From Chloroflexota bacterium (GTDB lineage: Bacteria; Chloroflexota; Anaerolineae; J036; Brachytrichaceae), in NCBI GenBank assembly GCA_018969115.1, contig JAGWYZ010000012.1:1-34294 (forward strand): 34,294 nucleotides of DNA, given 5' to 3'. Positions within the stretch are counted from its first letter, which is position 1, and every line of letters begins with the position of its first letter. A model generated the notes under the pieces. That model did no database searches and was not told the origin of the DNA. It saw only the letters and a list, made by a program, of their open reading frames with translations. This document shows, in pieces, positions 1-30,752 of this stretch. The position numbers and the translations under genes are program-made.

Positions 1-87
1 ATTTTGTCTAAATATGCGCTCTGATTTGATAAGATCACGTGATTTCATTTGACCAGAAAGTGGAAATTGATTTAAGAAACACCCTCT
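1..87. repeat. Right-end copy of the 18.05-18.25 kb MITE-like element
   Basis: 87-bp gapless match to 18164-18250 with about 6 mismatches; the rest of the element would lie upstream of the window. Confidence 0.85.
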
Positions 88-5150: not shown

Positions 5151-5154
5151 GAAG

Positions 5155-5224
5155 AAATTTAAAATTTAAAATGGAAAATTTAAAATTGGAGGAAAAGCCT
5201 AGTTAATTTTCCATTTTAAATTTC
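5155..5224. repeat. AT-rich short-repeat hairpin
   Basis: AAATTTAAAATGGAAAATTTAAAATT ... TTAATTTTCCATTTTAAATTT. Confidence 0.75.
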
Positions 5225-5541: not shown

Positions 5542-5595
5542 GCCGATCTTACGATGCCGCTTCCTGCAAAGCAGAAGAGACATCGTGAGATCGGC
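5542..5595. repeat. Variable-core palindrome family member (imperfect)
   Basis: GCCGATCTTACGATG...CTGC-AAA-GCAG...CATCGTGAGATCGGC. Confidence 0.7.
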
Positions 5596-6429: not shown

Positions 6430-6631
6430 GAAATTTAGAATTTAAAATGGAAAATGGAAAATTGGGCAGCAATTTTTGAGGGCATCCTCAAAAGACGTAA
6501 TGCCGAAATCACTATGGCAACCTGTTTGCATTGGGCTTTGCCCAATGCAAACAGGTTGCCATAGTGATTTCGGCGAAGATTTATTTTACCTGCCCCAATT
6601 TTTCATTTTAAATTTTCAATTTTGAATTTTT
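6430..6631. repeat. AT-rich hairpin arms enclosing the 6502-6574 palindrome
   Basis: GAAATTTAGAATTTAAAATGGAAAATGGAAAATTGGGCAG ... CTGCCCCAATTTTTCATTTTAAATTTTCAATTTTGAATTTTT. Confidence 0.75.
6502..6574. repeat. Variable-core palindrome family member (perfect 35-bp arms)
   Basis: GCCGAAATCACTATGGCAACCTGTTTGCATTGGGC-TTT-GCCCAATGCAAACAGGTTGCCATAGTGATTTCGGC. Confidence 0.95.
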
Positions 6632-7098: not shown

Positions 7099-7184
7099 TG
7101 GAAATATAAAATTGAAAATGTAAAATTGAAAATTGGCCCATGGCCTCCATTTTTAATTTTACATTTTCGATTTTCAATTTTATT
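7099..7184. repeat. AT-rich short-repeat hairpin (AAAATTG/AAAATGT words)
   Basis: AAATATAAAATTGAAAATGTAAAATTGAAAATTGG ... ATTTTTAATTTTACATTTTCGATTTTCAATTTTATTT. Confidence 0.8.
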
Positions 7185-14365: not shown

Positions 14366-14466
14366 AATCGTAACTCCATCTAAGCATATTACAACCCAAG
14401 TCGTAATTCTTGATAAGAAATTGACAAAATCTTGATTTTTGTAAGGGTCAAAATAATAACGAAACC

Positions 14467-14555
14467 GTCATTTCGAGCGGAGCGAGAAATCTTTGCATAA
14501 CATACGCTTTTAGCCTCAATTTACACAAAGATTTCTCGCTTCGCGTCGAAATGAC
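14467..14555. repeat. Inverted-repeat element GTCATTTCGAGCGGAGCGAGAAATCTTTG...CAAAGATTTCTCGCTTCGCGTCGAAATGAC, copy 1
   Basis: About 29-bp near-perfect inverted arms; a second copy in opposite orientation begins at 21221. Confidence 0.85.
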
Positions 14556-14605
14556 AGATGTTACGCAAAAATGACGATTTCTATCTCGTGCGTGATGACA
14601 CAGCG

Positions 14606-18052: not shown

Positions 18053-18252
18053 CTCTAAGACACTGTTTCTTAAAACAATTTTTCGCCAAAATCACTATCT
18101 CAGGGTTGTTATGGGGTGGCAAAGCCACCCCATAACAACCCTGAGATAGTGATTTTGGCATTCATTTTGTCTAAATATGCGCTCTGATTTGATAAAATCA
18201 TGTGACTTCATCTGACAAAAAAGTGGAAATTGATTTAAGAAACACCCTCTAA
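18053..18252. mobile_element. MITE-like foldback element with a 36-bp perfect palindromic core
   Basis: Related ends AGACACTGTTTCTTAAAACAATTT (left) and AATTGATTTAAGAAACACCCTCT (right); core 18085-18120 / 18124-18159 perfect with AAA loop; right 87 bp (18164-18250) also found at 1-87. Confidence 0.75.
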
Positions 18253-18722: not shown

Positions 18723-18904
18723 TTTTATCAATGGCATTAAGCTAAGCATTGCTCAGACCTCAGCTATTTTTTAACAGCGCGTGGTTTGCTGCGTCATAGC
18801 CTTGGCTTAGATGTGCTGGCTTAGCATCCGGCCTCCCTCGTTAGGTGACAGATGCACCACACCTCGCAGGTGCGGTGCATCTTCTTTGGCCTAAATTTAT
18901 GTCG

Positions 18905-18947
18905 TATCTAGAAATCGGGTTTTTGGAAGAAACCCGATTTCTGTGAC
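18905..18947. repeat. Dispersed palindrome AGAAATCGGGTTT..AAACCCGATTTCT, copy 2
   Basis: About 43 bp, matching 2866-2908 in opposite orientation with about 3 mismatches, including 5 bp outside each arm. Confidence 0.8.
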
Positions 18948-19075
18948 ATCTCACAATTTAGCAAAACGCCTAACGCTTCAATTTCATCCTGTAGTTGATT
19001 AGAAACACACCTAAAACGGTATACAATAAACACTCTATCGTTTATTTTTTATCAAATTTAATCAGGATCAACTTT

Positions 19076-19911
19076 ATGTCAAAAAAATCGCCTCAACAAC
19101 CATACGATGAAGATGTCAAACAACTACACGCCTTAGGCTATGCGCAAGAATTGTCGCGTCGAATGAGCGGGTTTTCAAACTTCGCTATTTCGTTTTCCAT
19201 CATTTGTATGTTGGCAGGCGGTATTACCGCCTTTGCCAATGGCTTTAACTCGGCGGTCGGGGCCGCCATCGGCATCGGTTGGCCGCTGGGCGGTTTATTT
19301 GTCCTGATTGTGGCCTTGGCAATGGCCCAAGTTTTGTCGGCCTTCCCCACCGCCGATGGCATATATCATTGGAGTTCTATCCTCGGCAATAAAGGTTGAG
19401 GCTGGATGACCGCATGATCTATGCCTTTGCGCGTGATGGTGGTTTGCCGGCCTCGGCCAAACTTAGCACGGTGAATGAAACCTATCGCACCCCCGTCACC
19501 GCCATTTGGACTGGGGCTGTGTTGGCGCTACTTGCGACCATTTATAGCGAGGCTTTTAGCGTATTGGCGGCAGGTTGCGCGGTATTTCTCTACATTTCTT
19601 ACATCATGCCTGTTGCCGCTGGGCTATTGGCCGAAGGTAACACATGGAAGCAAAAAGGCCCCTTTAGCTTGGGTGTTTATTCAAAATTGGTCGCCATATT
19701 AGCCATTTTGGGTGGATTGGTGTTAGCGTGGGTGGGGATGTAAGCCCCCAACGAAAAAGCTGGCTATCTCACGGTTGTAATTATTGTTGGGTTAACAGCA
19801 CTGTGGTGGGTTTTTGAGCGCCGCCGTTTTCAAGGGCCGCCCACTGGCGGACGCATCGCGGCCTGTCAACGAGAAATTGCTGAGGTTGAGGCACGCTTAA
19901 ACCGCAACTAA
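19076..19911 (+). pseudogene. Degraded APC-superfamily amino acid permease
   Basis: N-terminal MSKKSPQQPYDEDVKQLHALGYAQELSRRMSGFSNFAISFSIICMLAGG...WSSILGNKG, then TGA. C-terminal DDRMIYAFARDGGLPASAKLSTVN...VGM, then TAA, then in frame APNEKAGYLTVVIIVGLTALWWVFERRRF. The central transmembrane part is absent. Confidence 0.85.
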
Positions 19912-20885: not shown

Positions 20886-20941
20886 AGTTGATTTTATCTC
20901 TTTAGTTTTTTTGTCAGAGGTAATTTAAAAAGATGTAATGT

Positions 20942-21007
20942 CGAAATCACGATATGGTCTTGGCGGCAGGGTTTTGCCTTTGCTCCCAAGGCCATATCGT
21001 GATTTCG
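20942..21007. repeat. Variable-core palindrome family member
   Basis: CGAAATCACGATATGGTCTTGG / CCAAGGCCATATCGTGATTTCG, 1 mismatch; flanks AAAAGATGTAATG and CGAACATTTGTTTTGTTTACCCC shared with the 6502-6574 copy. Confidence 0.85.
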
Positions 21008-21220
21008 GCGAACATTTGTTTTGTTTACCCCAAAAAATAGTGAACATGACACAAGATACGTCATGTTCACTGTAAATACTATTAAAAATGCCAAAATAGA
21101 TGTCTTAATTAGTGATTTACTATCAAACTCTTAGCTGAGATTCATTTATATCGACATAACCATCATCAACAATATACGGAAATGATTAAACACTGTAAGG
21201 ATCAAGATGATCGTAGAATG

Positions 21221-21304
21221 GTCATTTTGACGTGAAGCGAGAAATCTTTGCGTAAATTGAGGCTCGAAGCGTATCTTAAGCAAAGATGACGATTTGACGA
21301 TGAC
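21221..21304. repeat. Copy 2 (reverse orientation, one arm decayed) of the 14467-14555 element
   Basis: GTCATTTTGACGTGAAGCGAGAAATCTTTGCGTAAATTGAGGCTCGAAGCGTATCTTAAGCAAAGAT aligns to the reverse complement of copy 1. Confidence 0.75.
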
Positions 21305-21363
21305 ACTATCATCTTGCCCCCTACAGAAATGATTAAGTACGCAAAATCTTGCTTATAACCCTT

Positions 21364-25548: not shown

Positions 25549-25603
25549 GCCTATATCACTATCCCTCCTCAAGCCACGCTTGAGGAGGGATAGTGATATA
25601 GGC
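25549..25603. repeat. Variable-core palindrome family member (perfect)
   Basis: GCCTATATCACTATCCCTCCTCAAGC-CAC-GCTTGAGGAGGGATAGTGATATAGGC: 26-bp perfect arms, 3-nt loop. Confidence 0.92.
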
Positions 25604-26921: not shown

Positions 26922-27095
26922 AGTATTTTTTCCTTTCTACTTTCTAGTGCGTTGAATCTTACCATTATGTAGTCTTTTTTTACTAGGCGTTTTCAGATGC
27001 CTTTTCAAGAATAGCACAAATTCCGAAAAGATGAAGGGCCGATTTCACGATCTCTCCGCAAGGGGCCAGATTACTGGCCTACGCTAAGATTTGAG

Positions 27096-29546: not shown

Positions 29547-29649
29547 TGGTTTTATGATTGTACTGGGTTTACGATATTAAGATATGATCTCAAAATGGGG
29601 TAAGTAAATCAAGTTTGCGTCAAAGTCACTATAGATCAACTTTCTAAAA

Positions 29650-29706
29650 GATGAAGTGTGGATTTCATCATACCCTTGCTAAGCGTATGGTGAAATCCGC
29701 ACTATC
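29650..29706. repeat. Variable-core palindrome family member (diverged)
   Basis: GATGAAGTGTGGATTTCATCATAC...GTATGGTGAAATCCGCACTATC, centred on CTT-GCT-AAG; flank TAAAAGATGAAGTG as in other copies. Confidence 0.65.
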
Positions 29707-30701: not shown

Positions 30702-30752
30702 GAAAGTGCTGAGTGCTGAGTGCTAAGTTGCTACTCAGGACTCAGCACTTTC
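30702..30752. repeat. Short-tandem-repeat hairpin (GTGCTGA word)
   Basis: GAAAGTGCTGAGTGCTGAGTGCTAAG / CTACTCAGGACTCAGCACTTTC. Confidence 0.85.

Follow-up and report, generated by a model that had tools for sequence, protein, structure and literature searches.

Long hairpin stems can stay paired as their sequence changes, and how they do so is a long-standing question. It is raised by a 34,294-nt stretch of the draft genome of a Chloroflexota bacterium (called the window below), in which the initial annotation had described a family of palindromes with conserved ends and a different core in every copy. Two origins had been put forward: either one arm serves to rewrite the other, or the core is copied in as a snap-back during transposition.

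Hairpins of the window and the elements that carry them

As described, the hairpins at 6502-6574, 18085-18159 and 25549-25603 have arms of 35, 36 and 26 bp, respectively, which pair without a mismatch around 3-nt loops. Those at 5542-5595 and 20942-21007 are imperfect members of the family, the second of which really spans 20940-21009. The stretch 29650-29706, also listed as a less perfect copy, is devoid of the shared ends and is a separate hairpin just downstream of a truncated copy. The possible half copy near 27028-27055 is indeed a half hairpin; it belongs to a related family with a GCCGATTTCAC base. The hairpins and the parts of MITEs (types A and B, see below) to which they belong are the following:

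1-86, plus strand: end of another type B MITE; the window starts inside this copy, with the contig break close to its hairpin
5542-5595, plus strand: imperfect short hairpin with a GCCGATYT base; in the ortholog L028 the outer base is kept and the core is unrelated
6486-6501, plus strand: left internal arm of a type A module (CCTCAAAAGACGTAAT), from comparison with other copies
6502-6574, plus strand: perfect hairpin of a degenerate type A element, 35-bp arms, TTT loop
6575-6596, plus strand: internal arm on the right of this type A module (GAAGATTTATTTTACCTGCCCC); the element has lost its outer inverted ends
18056-18058: left target duplication of the type B MITE, TAA (TTA on the minus strand)
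18059-18249, minus strand: complete type B MITE of 191 bp, with ends GACACTGTTTCTTAAA and GAGGGTGTTTCTTAAA
18085-18159, minus strand: perfect hairpin within the type B MITE, 36-bp arms
18250-18252: right target duplication of the type B MITE, TAA
20940-21009, plus strand: imperfect type A hairpin; in the ortholog L019 the loop and several arm bases differ
25549-25603, minus strand: perfect short hairpin, 26-bp arms
27027-27055, plus strand: half copy of the related hairpin family (AAAGATGAAGGGCCGATTTCAC)
29581-29633, plus strand: truncated left half of a type A element

When copies were compared with orthologous empty sites in the sister species (G003), the palindrome proved to be the middle of a larger element. 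Type A elements, of about 150 bp, begin with GTATCTTCTCAATAA and end with TTATTGAGAAGATAC, these ends being inverted, and are bordered by 8-bp target duplications (AAACAAAG, TAAAGTTA, AGAATTTG, GARTATAT) that are absent from the empty sites. Clean empty sites were obtained for four locus pairs (L173/L184, L141/L199, L165/L201 and L176/L182); the pair L056/L087 was rejected because a truncated element is present there. Type B elements, of about 190 bp, have TTA as their target, for which an empty site was found, and IS5-like ends, GACACTGTTTCTTAAA and GAGGGTGTTTCTTAAA. Both types have the same hairpin foot, flanked asymmetrically by AAAAGATGTAAT on one side and GAAAATTTGTTTTA on the other. The interiors consist of hairpin modules only, with no transposase inside. 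The elements are non-autonomous MITEs, as defined by terminal inverted repeats, a target-site duplication with a clean empty site, and many copies without transposase, and the palindromes are their central hairpins. The initial annotation recognised no named family; the hairpins can now be described as those of MITEs, and the family itself is newly described as far as these searches show. In the literature, nothing was found on double-hairpin elements with compensatory changes, nor on perfect-palindrome MITEs in bacteria.

An intact IS5-family element is present in the same genome. It encodes a 266-aa transposase (NF033580), has the ends GAGAGTGTTTCTTAAAG and lies between TTA duplications. Since its ends (GAGAGTGTTTCTTAAA) resemble those of type B, it is a plausible candidate mobiliser of type B on sequence grounds. 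For type A, no mobiliser was found; an IS256-type transposase (PF00872) was ruled out, PF00872 being absent.

The pattern ATCACKATN{20,50}ATMGTGAT gave 126 matches in the 4.6-Mb draft genome, a lower bound for the copy number (at least 126), versus 3 for the reversed control pattern. In relatives of the genus, it gave 74 matches in G003, 2 in G001 and none in G002. With the extended pattern AAATCACKAT...ATMGTGATTT, 63 matches were counted in the source genome and none for the control, and only three genomes, all of the same genus, were positive among 397 of the class, control matches again being zero. Family copies are absent from the 393 other genomes of the class that were sampled; all of the genomes compared are draft assemblies, most or all of them metagenomic. 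The palindromes are thus real, their count being far beyond chance, and the family is restricted to one uncultured Chloroflexota genus.

Several other repeats were observed. The 89 reversed-pattern matches in G001 were discarded as a signal of the family, as they form a different family of inverted arrays (about 89, e.g. L031-L045 near position 1501) with heptamer-like units (TAGTGATAGTGGATAGT ... ACTATCCACTATCACTA) and unrelated centres; a short heptamer inverted array of like style (GAAAGTGCTGAGTGCTGAGTGCT...ACTCAGCACTTTC) lies at 30702-30752 of the window. In G003, four perfect 33-bp hairpins are arrayed near a Y1 transposase gene (L248:985-1377). As their AGATGC...GCATCT ends are conserved and their paired cores vary, they constitute a second family of this kind, one imperfect copy of which is found at 18850-18882 of the window. 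A further dispersed family, with arms AGAAATCG.GTTT...AAACCCGATTTCT, is represented by hairpins at 2871-2903 and 18910-18942, and one paired change was seen in a similar hairpin at L200/L174. AT-rich intergenic repeats of the AAATTTAAAATGGAAAATT type (5152-5222, 6430-6466, 7102-7180, 14418-14580 and 21180-21329) lie beside genes and match each other and relatives on both strands. Lastly, an amino-acid permease-like gene (18995-19743) appears to be split into N- and C-terminal frames and is probably a pseudogene, judging from its reading frames.

Paired changes in orthologous hairpins

Among 69 distinct 73-bp copies, the inner 21 bp showed a mean arm complementarity within a copy of 92%, versus a mean core identity between copies of 51%. 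The claim of a different core in every copy was nevertheless overstated. The core lineage of the 18085 hairpin, CTCAG[G/C]GTTGTTATGGGG (also written CTCAG[G/C]GTTGTTATG), accounts for 49 of the 82 TTT-loop copies in a manual count, and other burst lineages likewise share cores. The initial annotation had held that a few cores shared genome-wide, or arms that mutate independently at orthologous loci, would speak against its proposal; shared cores do occur in part, yet the paired arm changes at orthologous loci remain.

Orthologs were located in both directions via short coding markers, and the hairpins were then aligned. The comparison set comprised 20 orthologous loci with alignable cores, or 630 base pairs, with a divergence of about 6.5% in the flanking DNA; G001 was rejected as an outgroup for ancestral states, its intergenic DNA being too diverged. 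There were 525 unchanged pairs, 57 with a change in one arm, 18 mismatched in both orthologs and 30 with a two-sided Watson-Crick change, whereas about 0.43 two-sided changes were expected from the coincidence of independent ones. The comparison of orthologous loci suggested at the outset thus revealed that both arms changed together. At 6502, the sole hairpin difference from the sister MAG (L028) is one paired C-G to A-T transversion. One-base paired deletions at L076/L091 apparently arose independently in the two lineages, and six paired changes occurred at once at L077/L111. At most loci, the differences are confined to 1-3 pairs scattered over a core that is otherwise unique. Paired changes, though few, were also seen outside the family, in terminator-like and in unrelated hairpins (L073/L107, L012/L177). 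At two loci, the whole core is different: the ortholog of 25549 (L189) has a wholly different core, still paired, with an identical right junction, and the ortholog of 5542 (L028) shares the position and outer base of the hairpin but not its core. Furthermore, type A copies contained 249 cells of two-sided variation versus 59 in column shuffles, and 54 extra Watson-Crick pair types versus 22.

The substitution spectrum of the paired changes was neutral. Transversions made up 13 of the 30, as compared with 64 of 173 changes in the noncoding flanks (p=0.54), whereas compensation via G.U intermediates should favour transitions. On the gene strand, in tandem contexts, 14 G.T versus 29 A.C mismatches were counted (p=0.03, some copies being mutually orthologous and so not fully independent), which is opposite to the G.U tolerance expected under selection at the RNA level. 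The one-arm mismatches were of transition type in 51 cases and of transversion type in 6, a distribution that differs from the flanks (p=1e-4) and from the paired changes (p=8e-4) and indicates that mismatches of the transversion type are more easily resolved or eliminated.

The position in the stem also mattered. At the loop-proximal pairs 32-35, 27 mismatches were found versus 4 two-sided variants, and at pairs 12-31, 57 mismatches versus 223 two-sided variants (odds ratio of the contrast 26, p=2e-13). Such retention of loop-proximal mismatches would follow from fold-back priming, in which the loop-proximal bases serve as primer and the outer bases are rewritten. In addition, asymmetric loops were inverted between orthologs at 6 of 12 loci, an assembler origin being possible for individual cases, and inversion was commoner where the arms had diverged more (p=0.03). 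In assembly, the direction of a loop is ambiguous if its palindrome exceeds the k-mer in length. Loop orientation is therefore the weakest datum, as inside a 70-bp palindrome it may be set by the assembler. Taken together, the spectrum, strand, position and loop results agree with what has been published as the footprint of template switching between the arms of inverted repeats.

Processes that could produce the pairs

We consider in-place arm-to-arm copying of a known kind, within MITEs, as the best explanation, with a probability of about 0.7, and infer that the pairs arise by DNA copying, not by selection. According to this scheme, bursts of transposition would spread copies with one common core, and each inserted hairpin would then evolve where it lies. 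A point mutation in one of the arms would create a mismatch; a template switch, in which the nascent strand folds back on its own arm or hops to the opposite strand, would then copy arm onto arm, as might an equivalent hairpin-templated repair. The old pair would be restored or a new pair fixed on both arms, inter-strand switches additionally inverting the loop, and the core would drift over time to a new sequence with its pairing kept. The rewriting of one arm from the other proposed at the outset thus gains support, for the period after insertion, from the 30 two-sided changes in 20 hairpins, their neutral transversion share, the inverted loops and the loop-proximal mismatches.

The strong covariation could also be ascribed to selection on an RNA or DNA hairpin, slightly harmful mutations in one arm being offset by a second mutation, as happens in structured RNAs. 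The depletion of transversions among unresolved mismatches fits this explanation, as does the nearly invariant outer ATCAC/GTGAT base, although the copies were retrieved by that very motif. It appears unlikely in view of the neutral transversion share of the paired changes, the lack of a G.T excess over A.C on the gene strand and the free inversion of the loops. Hairpins occur in convergent, tandem and divergent gene gaps alike (22:36:8), and elements are missing at many orthologous sites, so that there is no sign of a conserved host function. Ectopic gene conversion among scattered copies, by which a whole hairpin and hence both arms would be replaced at once, is quite improbable: most loci show only scattered pair differences inside unique cores, and the position changed at 6502 is C, A or G in three related copies, for which no donor seen fits. 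Nonetheless, the ends common to many copies could act as homology, and conversion would account for the six simultaneous changes at L077/L111 and for the orthologous positions at which the entire core differs. Correction of single bases does not account for such cores, and the differences at 25549/L189 and 5542/L028 suggest either ectopic conversion or a larger template switch.

That the arms were equalised or the loops flipped by graph simplification or read correction is very unlikely, even though the contigs are metagenomic and many of them, including the window at its start, end at these palindromes. By reasoning, bubble merging would need about 2k+1 (at least 43) shared bases, beyond the 26-36-bp arms; paired changes with a neutral spectrum separate species, and many mismatches survive in the assemblies. 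Loop flips rise with arm divergence, yet the assembler may account for some of them. The other origin proposed initially, snap-back synthesis at transposition yielding a perfect hairpin with a new core that only decays afterwards, agrees with the mobility of the copies and with the different cores of the lineages. It can hardly be maintained, since recent bursts have identical cores, transposition thus copying the core faithfully, and is not needed, paired changes being seen between orthologs of a single insertion.

Returning to arm-to-arm copying, plain template switching does not predict the 51:6 transition bias of the one-arm mismatches. This bias could stem from selection that favours stable hairpins, or from a repair of extruded hairpins that responds to distortion. 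It is conceivable, if doubtful, that a mismatch-sensitive process acts on extruded hairpins, transversion mismatches being resolved about six times more readily than wobble-like ones, and that the hairpin is in addition an exchangeable cassette, one module found in two unrelated MITE frames and having its whole core swapped at fixed loci.

Comparison with known systems

Bacterial MITEs with IS5-family ends are similar to type B in their length of about 190 bp, inverted ends, TTA target and lack of coding capacity. Unlike them, type B carries a long hairpin module that is also present in type A, whose ends and target duplication are unrelated. Like REP/REPIN and CGTC-tagged palindromes, the palindromes of the family are scattered between genes. 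Many type A copies have a CGTC run at the foot of their hairpin, a likeness that is probably coincidental. REP stems are of 5-13 bp, without inverted ends and 8-bp duplications (PMC3733652, PMC3116915). The combination that marks REP/RAYT systems, a GTAG-tagged short stem with a Y1 transposase flanked by copies, was not found: the Y1 transposases are not near family hairpins, none of which was found in the DNA fetched around six Y1 loci. A RAYT/REP reading was therefore ruled out, inverted ends and duplications being present instead. As to structured RNAs, Rfam gave no match within the window, and G.U is not favoured over A.C. Covariation is usually taken as proof of a functional RNA; here, element copies without evident function combine strong covariation with a neutral substitution spectrum, and the family warns against inferring function from covariation alone.

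The closest parallel is template switching (quasipalindromes, Ripley model), which homogenises inverted-repeat arms and inverts spacers (PMC8604942; PMC8794818). Arm homogenisation, one-step two-sided compensatory changes, spacer inversion and correction outward from a primed loop are common to both. In contrast to the published cases, the footprint extends here over dozens of orthologous hairpins, all in MITEs of a single bacterial genus, and their unresolved mismatches are strongly biased to transitions. With dozens of replicate hairpins, the family lends itself to measurements, in a bacterium, of arm-to-arm copying, a process that is already known and has rarely been this clear at so many comparable sites.
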